From positions 186,001-250,000 of the forward strand of contig NZ_UCOB01000003.1 of assembly GCF_900474295.1 (NCBI RefSeq): DNA of 64,000 nucleotides. Reading direction: 5' to 3'. This DNA comes from Synechococcus sp. UW140 (GTDB taxonomy: Bacteria > Cyanobacteriota > Cyanobacteriia > PCC-6307 > Cyanobiaceae). Positions 22,855-53,222 of this stretch are shown here, one piece after another. A program made the position numbers and the translations under genes. How positions within the stretch are numbered: the first letter of the stretch is position 1; the number at the start of each line of letters is the position of its first letter. Below the pieces are notes generated by a model. That model worked only from the letters and a program-made list of their open reading frames with translations. It was not told the origin of the DNA and did no database searches.

Positions 22855-24876
22855 GTGTTTCATGCTGGCGACCTCGTCGGCCTGGTCGAAACACGTGAGC
22901 CAAAGCTAGCTGTTGTCGAATCAGTACAAGGCAGCAAATATCGCATTCGTGTTGGCTTCACAGCCAAGCAGCAGGTTGTTGCTAAGCGACACCTCGAACT
23001 CATCTCCCCTTTGCCCAGTGGTGATGCACCACCCATTCGCCTAGGCCTTGCCCCTTGGTCATTCTCTGAGCCAGAGCTTCATCAAGCTCGTCCCAGCAGA
23101 CGCGAATGGGCCTCAGCCTGGGTCCTGCTCTCGGAATCAGACGAGACACTTGAGCTTGACGCATTCGCGGATCTTGTCTGCGCTGCGGATCGCCCCATCC
23201 ATCGCGTTGTCTGCTGGCTGGCCTTGCATCATTCGCAATGGATGTTTCGCTTCAAGCAAGGTGTGATTGAAGCGCGAAGTAGCGACGAGCTAAAACATCT
23301 TCGTCAGGAAGAACGCCGGCAGAGGCGTAATCAAGCCCGTCGTCAAGCCTGTATTGACCTATTTCGTCAGGGTGACGCCATACAACCTGATTGCCTTGAT
23401 CATCAGCAGGCCCAGTGGATGGAGCAGATCAAGGAGATGGCGACAGGACGCCTTGATTACCGAAAACTAGAAGACGACGTCAAAATAATTCTGAAGGAAC
23501 TTCATCTCGACAATGACACGTTAGATCTCTATCGAATGTTGATCAAGCTTGGACAAATTGATCCCCATCAGTTGCCCGCCATGCAGGCCAGTCGATGGTC
23601 ATCTGGATTCAGTTCAGAGCTCGAAGCATTAGCAAGCCAATTAGTCGATGAAAGTGAGACAAACAAACCAGGTGATGATGAGCGCTTGGATCTGTGTCAT
23701 TTGCACTGCGTCACCATCGATGATGCCGACACACGTGACATCGACGACGGTCTTTCCCTTGAAAGGAAGGATGGAGGCGGTGCTCGAATCTGGATCCATG
23801 TTGCTGATCCCGGGCGTCTGATCGAAGCCGGCTCACCGCTCGATCAGGAAGCCATGGCCCGTGGCAGCAGTCTGTATCTGGCACAGGGAATCCAATCCAT
23901 GTTCCCGTCCTGTCTGGCTACAGGTCCTTTTAGCCTCCGCAGTGGCCGAAGAAACCCAGCGTGGAGTACCTGGGTTGAACTGGATCCAGATGGGGCGATT
24001 GAGGCGTACGGAATCATGCGTAGCTGGGTGAAACCTCTTTACAAACTCAGTTATGACGATGCGGATGAACTGATTGATTTAGCTCCACCAGAAGAAGCGG
24101 ATCTCGCAGAGCTCGATCATCTTCTCAAACGTCGAAAGCAATGGCGTGAAAACAATGGAGCTCTGATGATGGAACTCCCGGAAGGTCGATTTCGCTGTCG
24201 CGACAACCAAGCCTCGCTAGAGATTACGGAGCCCTCCCCCTCCCGGTTGATGGTTGCGGAAGCCATGATCCTGGCGGGTGCTGCAGCTGCTCAGTTCGGC
24301 ATCGACCATGCAGTCGCTATGCCCTTCCGTAGCCAACTGCCTGCGGAGTTGCCCTCGCCAGCCGAATTGCACGAGTTACCCGAGGGTGCTGTGCGCTTTG
24401 CCGCCATCAAGCGATGCTTAAGCAGAGGTTTGATGGGAACGAAACCAGCTGCTCATTTCAGCCTCGGCCTGCCGGCCTATGTACAAGCAACCTCTCCAAT
24501 TCGTCGGTATGGGGATTTGATCGTGCAACGTCAGATGCTTGCCACCCTGAACAATGACCCCCCATTCAGTGAAGACGATCTCCAAAATCTGGTTAATCAA
24601 GTGGATCACGCCACCCGAGAAGGCATCGGAATAAGCCGAGAAGACCAGCGCCACTGGCAGCAGGTGTGGTTTGAATCCCACTGTGAAGACCATTGGCAGG
24701 CCGCTTTTCTGCGTTGGTTGAGACCACAAGACCAACTTGGGCTGATTCGGATTGATTCACTGGCGATTGACCTCCCAGCTGAGTGCCCAGCTGGCTGTTC
24801 GCCTGGTGACGATCTAACAGTGGAGGTGATTGCTGCCGATTCGAGCTGTGATCAACTCAAGTTGAGGGGACGCTGA
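22855..24876 (+). CDS. RNase II/R family 3'-5' exoribonuclease (catalytically intact)
   Basis: A 673-residue RNB enzyme. The four active-site aspartates are all present in VTIDDADTRDIDDG (D289, D295, D297, D298, matching D201, D207, D209 and D210 of E. coli RNase II), followed by RIWIHVADPGRLIEAGSPLD. The RNA-anchoring segment TSPIRRYGDLIVQRQML is also intact. The N terminus is a cyanobacterial or plastid-type leader without a classical cold-shock pair. The C terminus after about 625 is short and only weakly S1-like. Start GTG 22855. A second, degenerate RNB paralogue is at 48026. Confidence 0.93.
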   Translation: MFHAGDLVGLVETREPKLAVVESVQGSKYRIRVGFTAKQQVVAKRHLELISPLPSGDAPPIRLGLAPWSFSEPELHQARPSRREWASAWVLLSESDETLELDAFADLVCAADRPIHRVVCWLALHHSQWMFRFKQGVIEARSSDELKHLRQEERRQRRNQARRQACIDLFRQGDAIQPDCLDHQQAQWMEQIKEMATGRLDYRKLEDDVKIILKELHLDNDTLDLYRMLIKLGQIDPHQLPAMQASRWSSGFSSELEALASQLVDESETNKPGDDERLDLCHLHCVTIDDADTRDIDDGLSLERKDGGGARIWIHVADPGRLIEAGSPLDQEAMARGSSLYLAQGIQSMFPSCLATGPFSLRSGRRNPAWSTWVELDPDGAIEAYGIMRSWVKPLYKLSYDDADELIDLAPPEEADLAELDHLLKRRKQWRENNGALMMELPEGRFRCRDNQASLEITEPSPSRLMVAEAMILAGAAAAQFGIDHAVAMPFRSQLPAELPSPAELHELPEGAVRFAAIKRCLSRGLMGTKPAAHFSLGLPAYVQATSPIRRYGDLIVQRQMLATLNNDPPFSEDDLQNLVNQVDHATREGIGISREDQRHWQQVWFESHCEDHWQAAFLRWLRPQDQLGLIRIDSLAIDLPAECPAGCSPGDDLTVEVIAADSSCDQLKLRGR

Positions 24877-46806: not shown

Positions 46807-47208
46807 GTGATACAGCGTCACAGCAGAGAGGCCATGGCAAGAGGAAAACCCTCTTGGAGCTGTATCAGTCAATGCGGTGCCTGCTGTCGTCTAGCTCCTG
46901 ACGAACGACCGGAGGCACTCGAAGTGCTTAACGATGAACAACGCGAGATCTATCTTGGTTTGGTCGGTGTCGACGGTTGGTGCAGGCATTACGACAGTGG
47001 TGGGCGGCGCTGTCGGATTTATGACGATCGGCCTGATTTTTGCCGGGTGACCAGCCTCGCGAGCTTGTTTGAGGTTCCGCCAGACCAAGCCGACAGCTTT
47101 GCGATCTCCTGCTGTCATCAACAGATCCGGTCTGTATACGGAGGCCGGAGTCGGGAACTGCGTAGGTTCAATCAGATTGTTTCGGGATCAAGGAAGGGCG
47201 ATGCCTGA
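46807..47208 (+). CDS. YkgJ-type CxxCxxCC metal-binding protein
   Basis: A 133-residue protein with the YkgJ signature CISQCGACCRL near the N terminus, DGWCRHYDSGGRRCRIYDDRPDFCR in the middle, and CC in ISCCHQQ. These cysteines bind zinc or iron in the family (PF03692). GTG 46807 is the first start; ATG 46834 (MARGKPSW) is more likely. Function unknown. It overlaps the first GDT1 gene by 8 bp and so may share its metal context. Confidence 0.88.
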   Translation: MIQRHSREAMARGKPSWSCISQCGACCRLAPDERPEALEVLNDEQREIYLGLVGVDGWCRHYDSGGRRCRIYDDRPDFCRVTSLASLFEVPPDQADSFAISCCHQQIRSVYGGRSRELRRFNQIVSGSRKGDA

Positions 47209-47575
47209 GATCGAAACCCCCAACACTGGTGTGGTGAATCCAGTACCAGCTGAGGACGATCAATCGAAGCCGGGGATGGGCTTCACGGCGGTTTTGCTCA
47301 GCACCTTCACCACTGTCTTCGTGGCAGAACTAGGTGACAAAACCCAGCTCGCCACCCTTCTCCTATCCGCCCAGTCAGGTGAACCATGGTTGGTGTTTGT
47401 TGGGGCAGCGTTCGCTCTGATCTGTTCCAGCTTGGTTGGCGTGCTGGTAGGGCGTTGGCTCTCCACAATTCTCCCCCCAGAGCGTTTGGAACAGATGGCG
47501 GGAGTGCTGATGGTGGGATTGGGTCTCTGGCTTGGATTGCAAGCCCTGCAATCCATCACTCAATTTTCACTTTGA
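47201..47575 (+). CDS. GDT1/UPF0016 half-size membrane protein, copy 1
   Basis: A 124-residue, three-helix protein with one ELGDKTQLAT motif (FVAELGDKTQLATLLLS), the cation site of the UPF0016/GDT1 (TMEM165) family. GDT1 proteins export Mn2+ or Ca2+; the cyanobacterial Mnx/PAM71 relatives move Mn2+. Full-length members carry two such motifs in two halves; here each half is a separate gene. It has an N-terminal Pro/Asp/Glu tail before the first helix. ATG 47201 overlaps the YkgJ-type stop; the second copy begins 13 bp after this stop. Confidence 0.9.
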   Translation: MPEIETPNTGVVNPVPAEDDQSKPGMGFTAVLLSTFTTVFVAELGDKTQLATLLLSAQSGEPWLVFVGAAFALICSSLVGVLVGRWLSTILPPERLEQMAGVLMVGLGLWLGLQALQSITQFSL

Positions 47576-47588
47576 CGCCTTAGATCAG

Positions 47589-47897
47589 ATGGATTTCCCA
47601 CTGCTTGCCTCCACCTTCGTCACTGTGTTTCTTGCCGAACTGGGTGACAAGACTCAGCTGGCGACCGTGGCGATCAGCGGCACATCCAACCGACCACTGG
47701 CGGTGTTCATTGGGTCGTCAAGCGCTCTTGTGCTGGCCAGCCTGATCGGGGCAATCGCAGGAGGATCCATGGCCAGCGTTGTGCCCGCTGACCTGCTCCA
47801 GCTTCTGGCCTCTGCTGGCTTCCTTTTGATCGGCATCCGTTTGCTCTGGCCGATGTTGTCGTCTTCAAAAGGGTTGAAAAGCGCAGAAGAAGACTGA
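47589..47897 (+). CDS. GDT1/UPF0016 half-size membrane protein, copy 2
   Basis: A 102-residue partner of the preceding gene with FLAELGDKTQLATVAISGTS, three helices (FIGSSSALVLASLIGAIAGG, LLQLLASAGFLLIGIRLLWPML) and a short charged tail. The start is ATG 47589 (MDFPLLAST); the frame upstream to 47532 is discarded because it overlaps the first gene and reads as no family sequence. The two proteins probably assemble as an antiparallel heterodimer. Confidence 0.9.
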   Translation: MDFPLLASTFVTVFLAELGDKTQLATVAISGTSNRPLAVFIGSSSALVLASLIGAIAGGSMASVVPADLLQLLASAGFLLIGIRLLWPMLSSSKGLKSAEED

Positions 47898-47991
47898 TTC
47901 GGGTCTGCACCTAAAATTAATCAACACCTGGACATCCTCTGCGTGGTTCTTGAGCTCCGGTTCAAGGGCCTGTCCAAGGTGATCCCCGCCC

Positions 47992-48008
47992 CCGGCCCTG
48001 TAGGCCGG
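47992..48008 (+). promoter_or_regulatory. Small hairpin upstream of the second RNB gene
   Basis: CCGGCC and GGCCGG pair across CTGTA, 17 bp before the ATG at 48026. Close enough to affect ribosome access; RNB genes in other bacteria regulate their own messages, but no such evidence exists here. Confidence 0.35.
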
Positions 48009-48025
48009 CCAGCTCACACCCAACG

Positions 48026-50359
48026 ATGAAGTTCTCGGTCGCCGATCTCCTCGACCATCTCCCCCTAACCGGATCTCTGGAAACGGGGAAACTCGAAAAG
48101 ATTTTGCGGCTCAGTAACCGCGCTGAAAAGCAGCATCTAACTCTGGCGCTGCAAAGCCTGGCGAAACTTGGAGTGCTCGAGCTCGCTGGAGAAGAAGAGG
48201 TCAGCCGTTGCCAAGACGAAGGCCTGATTGAGGCGCGGTTGCGTTGCAGCAGCAAAGGCTTCTGCTTTGCCATCCGCGAAGACGGAGGTGAAGATATCTA
48301 CGTTCGAGATCACCAGCTCAATCACGCCTGGAACGGTGACCGCGTGCTTGTGCGAATCACACGGGAGGGTGGTCGTCGACGATCACCCGAAGGGGGGGTG
48401 CAATGCATTCTTGAACGCAGTACCACCAGCCTTCTCGCCCAGCTCGAAAAGCAGGACGAACGCCTGATGGCCTTGCCGCTCGATGATCGCGTGCTCGCGA
48501 CCATCGAACTGCCCGAGGCGGATGTCTGTCATCTGACTGAAATCGACGAACCCTCAGTCGTCGAAGTGGAGGTCGACCGATATCCGGTGGCTCAGTTTTC
48601 AGCCCGCGGCCACGTCGCACGACCGCTGCCCCTCGATGCAGGGCCTGCCGGTGATCGTGAGCTGCTACTCACCAAAGCCCACCTGCACAAAAGGCCCCCA
48701 GCTCCTCGAGCCAGTAGTAAGTCCCCTTCAACCAAAAAAAGAGTCGATCTCACCGATCAACCTTCGCTGTTACTACGGTCATGGGCTGGCCTTCAGGCTC
48801 CATGTCTGCCGGCAGTTCATGTGGAACCCCATGAAGGCGGCAGCCGTCTCTGGCTCCATGCTCCATCGATTGCTGAAAGGATCAACCCCGCTAGCAGCAT
48901 GGATCATTGGTTGCAAGATCAAGGAGAAGCTCTCTGTTTAGGAGAGTCCTGGCAGCCTTTACTGAACTCGACACTGACGCAGGCGAGCCGCTTCGAGGAA
49001 AATGCAAGCCAAGACGCCATCTCGCTGCGTCTTGATATCAGCGCCGACGGAACCATTGGCGAGTGGGAGTTTCAACTGAGCACGGTGCGACCGGTCGCCA
49101 CCGTGACGGCTAAAGCCTTAGCCGCCTTGGCGACCCGCAAGCCCAAGGCACGCACGGTACCGGTGGCGCTCAAGCCTCTCAAGGACCAGCTCGGTCAGAT
49201 CGAGACCTTGCTCTTCTGTGCCCGCAGTTTGCATGACCAGGCCTGCAGTCGTGGGGGCATTGAACTGGACCTGCCTGCTCCAGCCCTAGAAAATCTTGGG
49301 GATCTGCGCTGTGCCTCGCCTGATTCATGTCGCCATCAATGGCTGGCACCCCTCAATCAAGAGGATCCGAATTCAATCCTTGCTGTTCTGATCAGAGCAG
49401 CTGACCAATGCTGGGCCAGACACGCCTCGGATCTCAATCTTCCATTCCTTGTGCTTGAAGCAGTGGAGCCAGACCCATCAACGCTCAATGATGTGGCCAA
49501 AACAGCCATCGGGCTTGACCTGCCCTTGGAACTGGATGATGAGGGAACTCCCTCAGCGGTAGATCTGGTTCGAGCCTTCAAGGACAGTCCTTTGCGGAGA
49601 ATGCTTGACCTTCAGATGCGCCAGGCGCTCCCTGATCCAATGGTGCGATCGATCAGCGCACGAGCACTCACCAACGAAGATGCCGAGCATGACGATGGAG
49701 ACAATCCGCTACCGAACACCGAATCGATCCCATCAGCCCAACCTGGAGCTCCCTGGTGTTGTCCAACCCTGCATGCGACAGACCTGATTAACCAGCATGT
49801 TCTTGCCGCATTGCTCAACGAAGGCAAAGATCGCCCCACCGTGCGTCATAAGGAAAAGGTGAATCTGGGTCGAAGCGGCGCAGGTGGTGGCGTCCGTTGG
49901 CCTCTGCTGACGGCCAGTCAGGAGCAGAAACTGCTCGAAGCATTCCAACAACGTCAGCTTGTGCGTCTGAACAGCCGACGCAGACAGCAGACAGAGCTGG
50001 AAAAGGATCTGATCGCCATGGCCCAGGCTCGCAGTGCGGAACCCATGGTTGAACAGGAACACAAGGGCCGTATCAGCGGTGTCCAGAGTTATGGCTTCTT
50101 TGTCGAACTCCCGCCTTCAGGGGTAGAAGGCATGGTGCACGTCAGCTCCCTGAACGACGATTGGTACGAATACCGATCACGCCAGAACCGCCTCGTGGGG
50201 AGGCGTAACCGTCGCGTTTATCAACTGGGTGACGAAGTCGTCGTCAAGGTCACCAAGGTGGATGTGCTCCGTAATCAAATCGATCTCGACATTGTTGAAA
50301 CTGAACCTGAATCGAGCCATGGGAAGGAGTCGCTTCCCGTCGCAGTGAGCGACCAGTAA
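48026..50359 (+). CDS. RNase R-like RNB protein lacking the catalytic residues
   Basis: A 777-residue protein with the RNase R architecture: N-terminal winged helix (about 1-55), cold-shock domain (GFCFAIREDGGEDIYVRD and following), RNB region, and C-terminal S1 domain (HKGRISGVQSYGFFVELPPS, GMVHVSSL). The RNB segment still aligns (GGSRLWLHAPSIAERINPAS with GGARIWIHVADPGRLIEAGS of the intact paralogue), but the stretch carrying all four catalytic aspartates is replaced by a shorter CLPAVHVEPHE, and the SPIRRY anchor is changed to CPTLHATD. It should bind RNA but not cut it. Same strand as ubiX, 16 bp apart. Confidence 0.88.
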   Translation: MKFSVADLLDHLPLTGSLETGKLEKILRLSNRAEKQHLTLALQSLAKLGVLELAGEEEVSRCQDEGLIEARLRCSSKGFCFAIREDGGEDIYVRDHQLNHAWNGDRVLVRITREGGRRRSPEGGVQCILERSTTSLLAQLEKQDERLMALPLDDRVLATIELPEADVCHLTEIDEPSVVEVEVDRYPVAQFSARGHVARPLPLDAGPAGDRELLLTKAHLHKRPPAPRASSKSPSTKKRVDLTDQPSLLLRSWAGLQAPCLPAVHVEPHEGGSRLWLHAPSIAERINPASSMDHWLQDQGEALCLGESWQPLLNSTLTQASRFEENASQDAISLRLDISADGTIGEWEFQLSTVRPVATVTAKALAALATRKPKARTVPVALKPLKDQLGQIETLLFCARSLHDQACSRGGIELDLPAPALENLGDLRCASPDSCRHQWLAPLNQEDPNSILAVLIRAADQCWARHASDLNLPFLVLEAVEPDPSTLNDVAKTAIGLDLPLELDDEGTPSAVDLVRAFKDSPLRRMLDLQMRQALPDPMVRSISARALTNEDAEHDDGDNPLPNTESIPSAQPGAPWCCPTLHATDLINQHVLAALLNEGKDRPTVRHKEKVNLGRSGAGGGVRWPLLTASQEQKLLEAFQQRQLVRLNSRRRQQTELEKDLIAMAQARSAEPMVEQEHKGRISGVQSYGFFVELPPSGVEGMVHVSSLNDDWYEYRSRQNRLVGRRNRRVYQLGDEVVVKVTKVDVLRNQIDLDIVETEPESSHGKESLPVAVSDQ

Positions 50360-50375
50360 GCCAAGCGCCGCAACT

Positions 50376-51014
50376 GTGAGTCATTCAAATCAGAACGATC
50401 AAGCATTGCTGCCCTACGTCCTGGCGGTCACTGGAGCCTCGGCCCAACAGTTGGCCGAGCGCTCGCTTGAGCTGCTCTTGCAGAACAATCGCCATGTTCA
50501 CCTCGTTCTCAGCAGGGGGGCCCATGAGGTCTGGAAAGCCGAAATGGGAGTGAATGTTCCAGTCGACCCTCAAACACAGGAAGGCTTCTGGAGAGAACGA
50601 CTCCGATGCGATCAAGGAGTCCTCCACTGCCACCGCTGGAATGATCAGGCGGCAACGATTGCCAGCGGTAGTACTCGCACCCGCGCCATGGTGATTGTGC
50701 CCTGCAGCATGGGCAGTGTTGGCAGAATCGCTGCAGGTGTCGCCACCGACTTGGTTGAACGTTGCGCTGATGTTCACCTCAAGGAAGGACGCCCGCTTGT
50801 GATAGCGCCCAGGGAAATGCCCTGGAACCTCATCCACCTGCGCAATTTGACCAGCTTGGCAGAAGCTGGGGCAAGGATTGCTCCACCGATCCCAGCCTGG
50901 TACACCCAACCAAGAAGTCTCGAAGACATGGTTGATTTTCTGGTGGTGCGCCTATTCGACGGGCTAGGTGAATCGCTCACACCGATTCAACGCTGGCGAG
51001 AAGAAAAGGCATGA
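50376..51014 (+). CDS. ubiX: Flavin prenyltransferase UbiX
   Basis: A 212-residue flavoprotein that prenylates FMN to make the cofactor of UbiD-type decarboxylases. Family markers: VLAVTGASAQQLAERSLELL, the CSMGSVGRIAAG segment, DVHLKEGRPLVIAPREMPW, and IHLRNLTSLAEAGARIAPPIPAWY. In cyanobacteria UbiX serves the plastoquinone path together with UbiD. GTG 50376 is the start; the stop overlaps the next gene (ATGA). Confidence 0.93.
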   Translation: MSHSNQNDQALLPYVLAVTGASAQQLAERSLELLLQNNRHVHLVLSRGAHEVWKAEMGVNVPVDPQTQEGFWRERLRCDQGVLHCHRWNDQAATIASGSTRTRAMVIVPCSMGSVGRIAAGVATDLVERCADVHLKEGRPLVIAPREMPWNLIHLRNLTSLAEAGARIAPPIPAWYTQPRSLEDMVDFLVVRLFDGLGESLTPIQRWREEKA

Positions 51015-51577
51015 CCAAGCTCCAGAAGCTTCTCTTGGTGCCCAGCCTCAGCCCCCTGGTGGCAGCCATGGTTGTGGCCAGTCTCAATCTGCGCCAACCC
51101 ACGTCCTTGAAGCTACTCACTTGGCGCAGCCCAGCAATTCCGATCGGAGCCTGGGTTGCTGTCGCCGCAGGAGGCGCTGGTCTGTTTAGTTTTCTGGCGG
51201 CTTATGGGGCATCCGCTGCCAGTGCTCCTCTACGCAGGCAGGTACATCGTCCCTTGGGCTGGGACAAGCCTGAAGATGAGTTCTGGTCACCCCCTGTAGA
51301 GCAACAACCTTTCACACCGCATCAACAGACAACAGAGAGCAACCAACAAGCCACAGTGCAATGGCCTGAAAGGGATGTGCGCGATCCCGCTCCAACCGTG
51401 GCTGTCCCATTCAGGGTCATCCAGTGGGGAAACAAGGGACACTCAGAGCCTGCACAAGCCCAGAACGTTTCAAGGGCAGGAACTGCAGCGGCAACACCAG
51501 CACAACCAAAAACGACCACTGAGGACATCACAAGCCTCGATGACGACTGGGATCGTCCCCTGCCGGATGACTGGTGA
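51011..51577 (+). CDS. Two-helix membrane hypothetical protein
   Basis: A 188-residue protein with two hydrophobic segments near the N terminus (LLLVPSLSPLVAAMVVASL and IPIGAWVAVAAGGAGLFSFLAA) followed by a polar Gln/Thr/Pro-rich tail ending in an acidic DDDWDRPLPDDW. The tail is low-complexity and likely disordered. No family recognised. Overlap of 4 bp with ubiX suggests coupled expression. Possibly a small membrane protein of the plastoquinone or chlorophyll cluster, by position only. Confidence 0.65.
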   Translation: MTKLQKLLLVPSLSPLVAAMVVASLNLRQPTSLKLLTWRSPAIPIGAWVAVAAGGAGLFSFLAAYGASAASAPLRRQVHRPLGWDKPEDEFWSPPVEQQPFTPHQQTTESNQQATVQWPERDVRDPAPTVAVPFRVIQWGNKGHSEPAQAQNVSRAGTAAATPAQPKTTTEDITSLDDDWDRPLPDDW

Positions 51578-51630
51578 GCGCTGGTGACTGCTTGCCTGCG
51601 CTGACTAAAGTTGCGCCAGTGAAGGCCATC

Positions 51631-52071
51631 ATGGTGAGCGAAACTCCTGCTGCAGCAACTCCTGCACCTTCTGACAAGCCAAAGAAGGCAGAAAAAGTCG
51701 CTAAGCCGCCGAAGCCTGAAGACAAGCCGTTCGAGGCTTTCATTCATGAAGAACTGATTCCCGCCTTGCGCAAGGGATTACAAGATCACAACATCACCCC
51801 AGCCGTCCTTGATCTCAGGCAAGGCGAACGGCCTGTTGTTGGTGGCACATGCTGGATGGTGCATGGCGAACTGCCCCCTGGCCGACGGTTCTGGCTGTGC
51901 TTCTCAGAGGCTTCGATCACCTCCTCCAAAACCATTGCACTTGCTGATCCGGGCACGGATGCGAGCCTGCTCGAGTCGTTTCTGATCGACGAAAAGCGCA
52001 TGACGCTGGCCCTGCTGCAATCCCGTCTGTTGCAAAGACTCAATGGCCAGAAATGGTTGGGTGGCAACTGA
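51631..52071 (+). CDS. DUF2996 family protein
   Basis: A 146-residue protein with a Lys/Pro/Ala-rich N-terminal leader (about 1-35) and the DUF2996 core: EDKPFEAFIHEELIPALRKGL, PVVGGTCWMVHGELPPGRRFWLCF, ESFLIDEKRMTLALLQSRLLQRLNGQKWL. The family occurs in cyanobacteria and chloroplasts and has no established function. ATG 51631 is chosen over GTG 51574, which overlaps the previous gene and adds 19 residues unlike the family. acsF follows 68 bp later. Confidence 0.85.
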   Translation: MVSETPAAATPAPSDKPKKAEKVAKPPKPEDKPFEAFIHEELIPALRKGLQDHNITPAVLDLRQGERPVVGGTCWMVHGELPPGRRFWLCFSEASITSSKTIALADPGTDASLLESFLIDEKRMTLALLQSRLLQRLNGQKWLGGN

Positions 52072-52139
52072 GGCTTAACACGATCCACCTTGATCAGCGG
52101 TGCTCCGCCTACATTGGTTGCCACTGAAGCTCAGATTCG

Positions 52140-53222
52140 ATGGTGCCCCCAACCGCCGTCAGTGAAGCCGCAGCAGCGGATTCAGCCGTTTCCATCAAGG
52201 ACCCGGTCAAGGACACGATCCTGACGCCCCGCTTCTACACAACCGACTTCGATGCGATGGCGGCGATGGACCTCCGCCCCAATGAGGCGGAACTAGAAGC
52301 CATTTGCGAAGAGTTCCGCAAGGATTACAACCGCCACCATTTTGTCCGTAACGGTGAATTCGACGGCGCCGCCGAGAAGCTCGACCCCAAAACACGAGAA
52401 GTTTTTGTTGAATTTCTTGAGCAGAGCTGCACCTCAGAATTCTCGGGATTTCTGCTTTACAAAGAACTGAGTCGCCGAATCAAGACGCGTAATCCTCTCC
52501 TTGCTGAGTGTTTCGCTCACATGGCACGAGACGAGGCCCGCCACGCTGGATTCCTCAATAAATCAATGAGCGACTTTGGCTTGCAGCTTGACCTAGGTTT
52601 TTTGACAGCCAATAAAAAGTATACATTTTTCAAGCCTAAATATATCTTCTATGCCACCTATCTCTCAGAGAAGATTGGCTATTGGCGCTATATCGCCATC
52701 TTCCGTCACTTGGAGAAGAACCCAGACAGCAAGATCTTTCCAATCTTCAACTTCTTCGAGAACTGGTGTCAGGACGAGAACCGCCACGGTGATTTCTTTG
52801 ATGCTCTGATGAAAGCCCAACCAGACACCGTTCGCGGCTTTCGCGCTCGTTTGTTCTGTCGTTTCTTCCTTTTGGCCGTTTTCGCGACCATGTATGTGCG
52901 TGATGTGGCTCGGAAGGAGTTTTATGAAGCCCTGGGTCTCGACGCTCGCGAGTACGACCGGATGGTGATTGACAAGACCAACGAGACATCGGCACGTGTC
53001 TTCCCTGTTGTGCTCGATGTCAAGAATCCCAAGTTCTGGGATGGGCTTGAAAATCTTGTTAACAACAATGCTGCCCTGGCTGCAGCTGATGCCAGCAGCG
53101 CACCTGCTCCATTGAAGCTGGTGCGCAAATTGCCCCACTGGCTGGCCAACGGAGTGCAGATGGCATCCCTCTTCCTGATGTCGCCTGTGCGCAGTGACGA
53201 ATATCAGCCAGCCGTCCGCTAG
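52140..53222 (+). CDS. acsF: Mg-protoporphyrin IX monomethyl ester oxidative cyclase
   Basis: A 360-residue diiron protein, the aerobic cyclase that forms ring E of chlorophyll. Diiron ligands sit in [28 protein letters not shown] and [16 protein letters not shown]; the FYTTDFDAM start and [11 protein letters not shown] segment match the AcsF/CHL27 family. The N-terminal about 25 residues are poorly conserved and Ala/Ser-rich. It is O2-dependent. A terminator-like hairpin lies about 50 bp after the stop. Confidence 0.97.

Follow-up and report, generated by a model that had tools for sequence, protein, structure and literature searches.

Why would a cyanobacterium keep, at full length, a ribonuclease-like protein that has lost its catalytic residues? 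The question is raised by a gene in the 64,000-nucleotide stretch of the Synechococcus sp. UW140 genome analyzed here (the window), which an earlier note, made from the sequence alone, had described as encoding a full-length, 777-aa RNase R-like protein without its catalytic aspartates. Exactly two RNB proteins were found in the source genome at E <= 0.001, and the window holds both the degenerate one and an intact paralogue, Rnb. Matched on published features rather than by alignment with the named Zam sequences, the degenerate protein is almost certainly the picocyanobacterial orthologue of Zam, and a degenerate RNase II/R protein is thus already known in kind (PMC9145284). What is new here is a refinement of that published finding: in picocyanobacteria, the loss of the site is complete and its replacement is fixed.

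The reading frame is present as described, and its four Pfam matches (OB_RNB 71-126, CSD2 89-130, RNB 239-598, and S1 672-755) all score above the curated cut-offs, with RNB at 118.8 bits. The winged-helix, cold-shock, and S1 domains that the note had listed as kept are likewise there, the latter two by Pfam; the Pfam search of the protein returned no winged-helix match at the N-terminus, where the AlphaFold model places three helices and a hairpin, a winged helix, at residues 5-61. That AlphaFold2 model, built from 65 sequences, has a pLDDT of 86.5 and a pTM of 0.84 and is of low confidence only at residues 547-570 and in the tail. In a Foldseek search, its top PDB matches were the RNase R enzymes of Bacillus subtilis and Escherichia coli (TM 0.67-0.68 by query), followed by further enzymes of the RNB group and by Ssd1 (7am1), a pseudonuclease. 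The predicted fold of Zam in the window is therefore that of RNase R. With the bacterial enzymes (E. coli 5xgu, B. subtilis 8cdu), the protein shares not only this fold but also the order of its cold-shock, RNB, and S1 domains, the N-terminal winged helix, and the S1 region; it lacks their catalytic Asp and Arg, and at 176.6 bits it does not reach the NCBIfam RNase_R equivalog cut-off of 597.85.

Positions in the window of zam, its domains and altered motifs, the paralogue, and the neighboring genes
Feature	Positions	Strand	Basis
zam orthologue, 777-aa degenerate RNase R-type protein	48026..50359	+	ATG start, ORF and domain searches
CSD1, residues 67-130, part conserved most	48224..48415	+	closest-pair dN = 0; family 84%, class 68% identity
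Cys pair C74 and C80 (CSSKGFC)	48245..48265	+	aligned Zam rows; PMC9145284
Degenerate RNB domain, residues 239-598	48740..49819	+	Pfam; class mean identity 21%
Former motif I, residues 251-262	48776..48811	+	alignment: Asp columns R251, P259, L261, P262
Former TSPIRRYGD anchor, now CCPTLHATD, residues 578-586	49757..49783	+	alignment: Arg column L582
S1 domain, residues 672-755, conserved	50039..50290	+	Pfam; 73% identity in family
Intact paralogue Rnb, RNase II type, comparison gene	22855..24876	+	protein search, Pfam, alignment
GDT1 cation antiporter half, conserved upstream neighbor	47201..47575	+	Pfam, loci comparison; start assumed ATG 47201
Second GDT1 half, immediately upstream of zam	47532..47897	+	Pfam, loci comparison
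Flavoprotein, ubiX-like, 16 bases downstream of zam	50376..51014	+	Pfam, loci comparison

We compared the active sites of the two proteins within one alignment. Its columns for the four catalytic Asp residues, which we take to be D201, D207, D209, and D210 of E. coli RNase II, assigned by pattern, read D/D/D/D in the paralogue and R251, P259, L261, and P262 in Zam, and the column of the catalytic Arg holds L582. The paralogue keeps both DDADTRDIDDG and TSPIRRYGD intact; in Zam the latter anchor is altered, as the earlier note had it, and reads CCPTLHATD. The claim about the four-Asp segment was half right: the aspartates are lost, but the segment between shared anchors is about two residues longer in Zam (LLRSWAGLQAPCLPAVHVE versus TIDDADTRDIDDGLSLE), so that the motif has been substituted at roughly equal length rather than deleted. 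The loss is also specific and no product of chance, since none of 78 distinct family sequences is acidic at columns D2, D3, or D4. A misreading or frameshift is ruled out by the same replacement, common to all 78, and by a frame that is open in nearly all relatives. Judged by these residues, the protein of the window very probably does not hydrolyze RNA.

According to Thomas et al. (2022, PMC9145284), Zam forms a clade of RNB proteins that spans the cyanobacteria and whose active site is extremely degenerate. Zam of Synechocystis (Sll1910) and of Synechococcus PCC 7002 (A1543) resembles our protein in several respects: there are two RNB proteins per genome, one of them degenerate; cold-shock, RNB, and S1 domains are shared, as are the degenerate site and a C-x5-C pair in CSD1; and conservation is centered on the OB folds of a protein that is near-universal in cyanobacteria. 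Deletion of zam in PCC 7002 and PCC 6803 alters pigments, growth, and acetazolamide tolerance, and among the phenotypes are changes in phycocyanin and in the PSI:PSII ratio. The purified PCC 7002 protein, which aggregated, showed neither nuclease activity nor RNA binding with the substrates tried (PMC9145284). Anabaena Alr1240, which PMC9145284 identifies as Zam, is reported to bind and stimulate RNase E. A review (PMC10989914) counts the same Alr1240 among active RNase II-like enzymes, degrading unstructured RNA and stimulating RNase E, and the two sources thus conflict on whether the protein is active or is an inactive Zam. For Prochlorococcus, our searches of the literature on Zam or RNase R turned up nothing specific.

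How far has the site decayed in relatives of the window genome? Among the 78 distinct sequences of the picocyanobacterial family, 73 have Pro at D2, 75 have Leu at D3, and 71 have Pro at D4; in these alignments the loss is complete and the replacement is fixed as P-x-L-P, which is not random decay. Elsewhere, many Zam rows retain isolated acidic residues, or the Arg, that the family has wholly lost: of the 57 rows outside the family, 46 have an acidic residue at D3, 19 have Asp at D4, and 32 still carry the Arg. Because these residues are partly kept outside the family and all gone inside it, the loss of the active site, read from the aligned rows, is graded across the class. Two Zam rows from f7 genomes (L120 and L121) have EN where DD stood. 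A further row outside the family (L104, from G405) fits D-x5-D-x-DD at an offset of three residues and still has TSPLRRYSD; the column-based count did not score it as intact, and this Zam might be active or recently inactivated. In Rnb, all 17 rows have the four acidic residues and the Arg. The cyanobacterial Rnb type (Sll1290; 22855-24876 in the window) has the RNB superfamily in common with Zam but differs in its intact site, its other N-terminal domains (HTH_RNase_II), and its separate branch of the tree. Zam rows lie on one side and Rnb rows on the other of a branch with an SH-aLRT of 99, in a tree made by a quick method without bootstrap, with motif I left out, several long branches, and an uncertain root. 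The fixed replacement could also be read as the mark of a separate, derived subtype whose former catalytic pocket was not simply given up but remodeled around P-x-L-P into a new binding site for a ligand or partner, a reading that we consider decidedly doubtful. A virus-borne form of Zam was dropped, as the search for viral relatives found none.

Retention of the gene is close to complete. Our protein search found Zam orthologues in 134 of 151 family genomes, including 94 of the 95 with a completeness of 90% or more, as well as in 24/24 near-complete genomes of the genus and 172/174 of the class; among relatives with a name, Synechococcus sp. UW105 is the nearest (95% identity). Nearly all copies of zam are open end to end, and the short ones sit at contig ends; in the fragmented assembly of G097 the gene appears in two pieces. 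Against its nearest relative (G159), the zam of the window genome has a dN/dS of 0.113 and its rnb one of 0.164 (Nei-Gojobori), and 40 close zam pairs, which are not independent of one another, mostly fall between 0.06 and 0.2; dS is saturated beyond close relatives. Judged from substitution rates, zam is under purifying selection. Selected retention of a noncatalytic form, as the earlier note proposed, is thus borne out by its presence in near-complete genomes, its low dN/dS, and its RNase R fold, and the comparison across relatives that the note had called for finds dN/dS near 0.1 with the degenerate form conserved, open, and syntenic.

The conserved gene order is a CxxCxxCC domain, two GDT1 halves, zam, and ubiX. 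Each GDT1 half occurs in 77 of 80 family loci and ubiX in 78, and several of the loci stop short of the neighbor; outside the family, zam and ubiX are adjacent in 6 of 9 loci (1.5-kb flanks). Small genomes of genus g18 keep zam with no ubiX beside it. In the window, the cluster at 46807-53222 comprises the CxxCxxCC protein, two overlapping short GDT1 ORFs, zam, ubiX, a DUF2996 gene, and then a 360-aa protein that, by eye, we take to resemble the Mg-protoporphyrin cyclase AcsF. A 188-aa ORF at 51011-51577 is without a Pfam match and occurs in only 16 of the 80 loci.

If the protein does not cut RNA, which of its parts does selection hold? Relative to G159, CSD1 has no nonsynonymous change (dN/dS of 0), S1 has a dN/dS of 0.048, and the RNB domain 0.129. 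Mean identity to Zam of the window falls in the same order, from 84% in the family and 68% in the class for CSD1, through 73% and 58% for S1, to 46% and 21% for the RNB domain, the lowest of the domains. In the Rnb group, RNB is instead the best-conserved part, with a mean class identity of 46% versus 21% in Zam. These alignments reproduce, with other genomes, the conservation pattern reported in PMC9145284. Since conservation is concentrated in the OB-fold domains, an RNA-binding, noncatalytic role for Zam is plausible.

Within CSD1, Cys fills the C74 column in 129 of the 135 Zam rows and the C80 column in 133, and the C-x5-C pair is not kept in Rnb. We know of no C-x5-C redox pair in Ssd1. 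In Zam of PCC 7002, the matching cysteines by domain and spacing are C73 and C79, which are redox active, and C-to-S mutants phenocopy the deletion (PMC9145284). Five rows (L061 to L064, from the genus g9 genomes G008, G063, G091, and G133, and L073, from G065) have Ser at the C74 position, in RSSSKGFCF or similar. A two-cysteine disulfide switch therefore cannot be universal, and this natural Ser, the counterpart of the C73S change in PCC 7002, weakens the published model, as does the disagreement over Alr1240.

We consider that the best explanation, and probably the right one, is that Zam is a pseudonuclease that acts as a redox-gated, noncatalytic regulator. The mechanism that we propose for picocyanobacteria, to which we give about an even chance, is that Zam would regulate RNA turnover by binding RNA or RNase E, with its redox state gating the protein and the cysteine pair as the switch. 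Among the noncatalytic roles offered in the earlier note, RNA binding remains credible and regulation of the paralogue is unsupported, the published partner being RNase E.

The strongest alternative is that Zam associates with ribosomes or mRNAs and, without cleaving RNA, governs translation or the turnover of ribosomes. Its best match in structure and sequence is RNase R on a 30S intermediate (8cdu), S1 and CSD1 are its conserved parts, and the search also matched Ssd1 (7am1), a pseudonuclease with an outer-surface RNA site. Yeast Ssd1, which is proposed to repress the translation of mRNAs that it binds, is likewise a nonenzymatic RNB-family protein with conserved cold-shock domains, but it belongs to the eukaryotic Dis3L2 lineage, lost activity independently, and has a channel obstructed by fixed loops and by an S1 insertion (PMC8934651). 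The 8cdu match, however, reflects overall RNase R homology rather than ribosome binding, and we regard a ribosomal role as rather unlikely. Less likely still is that Zam blocks RNA 3' ends or directly regulates Rnb: the two genes occur together in nearly all genomes searched, but two near-universal genes are expected to coexist, and we found no report of a Zam-Rnb interaction in the literature. In one genome (G157), rnb is split into two frames beside a full-length zam, which also speaks against this role, although the split may be a sequencing error as well as a pseudogene.

Could other acidic residues in the fold have taken over catalysis? Within the RNB domain, the family does conserve several such residues (D241, E284, D293, D426, and others), yet they form no D-x5-D/E-x-DD motif, none being conserved elsewhere in Zam in the family alignment; the catalytic Arg is lost too, and the inactivity of purified PCC 7002 Zam, with the caveat of aggregation, points the same way (PMC9145284), making a cryptic nuclease very improbable. 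That zam is a decaying gene heading for loss, as its poorly conserved RNB domain might suggest, has next to no chance of being right and is rejected by dN/dS and retention, given a gene that is open in nearly all relatives, a ratio of about 0.1 in many pairs, a place in small streamlined genomes, and a P-x-L-P replacement that is itself conserved.

We return to Zam as a probable redox-gated, noncatalytic regulator. The comparison exposes a conflict in the literature over the activity of a protein called Zam (Alr1240), and it offers natural tests in lineages where the site is erased or half kept and in one genus with Ser for a Cys reported to be essential. Zam is proposed as a link between RNA turnover and photosynthetic redox state in cyanobacteria.
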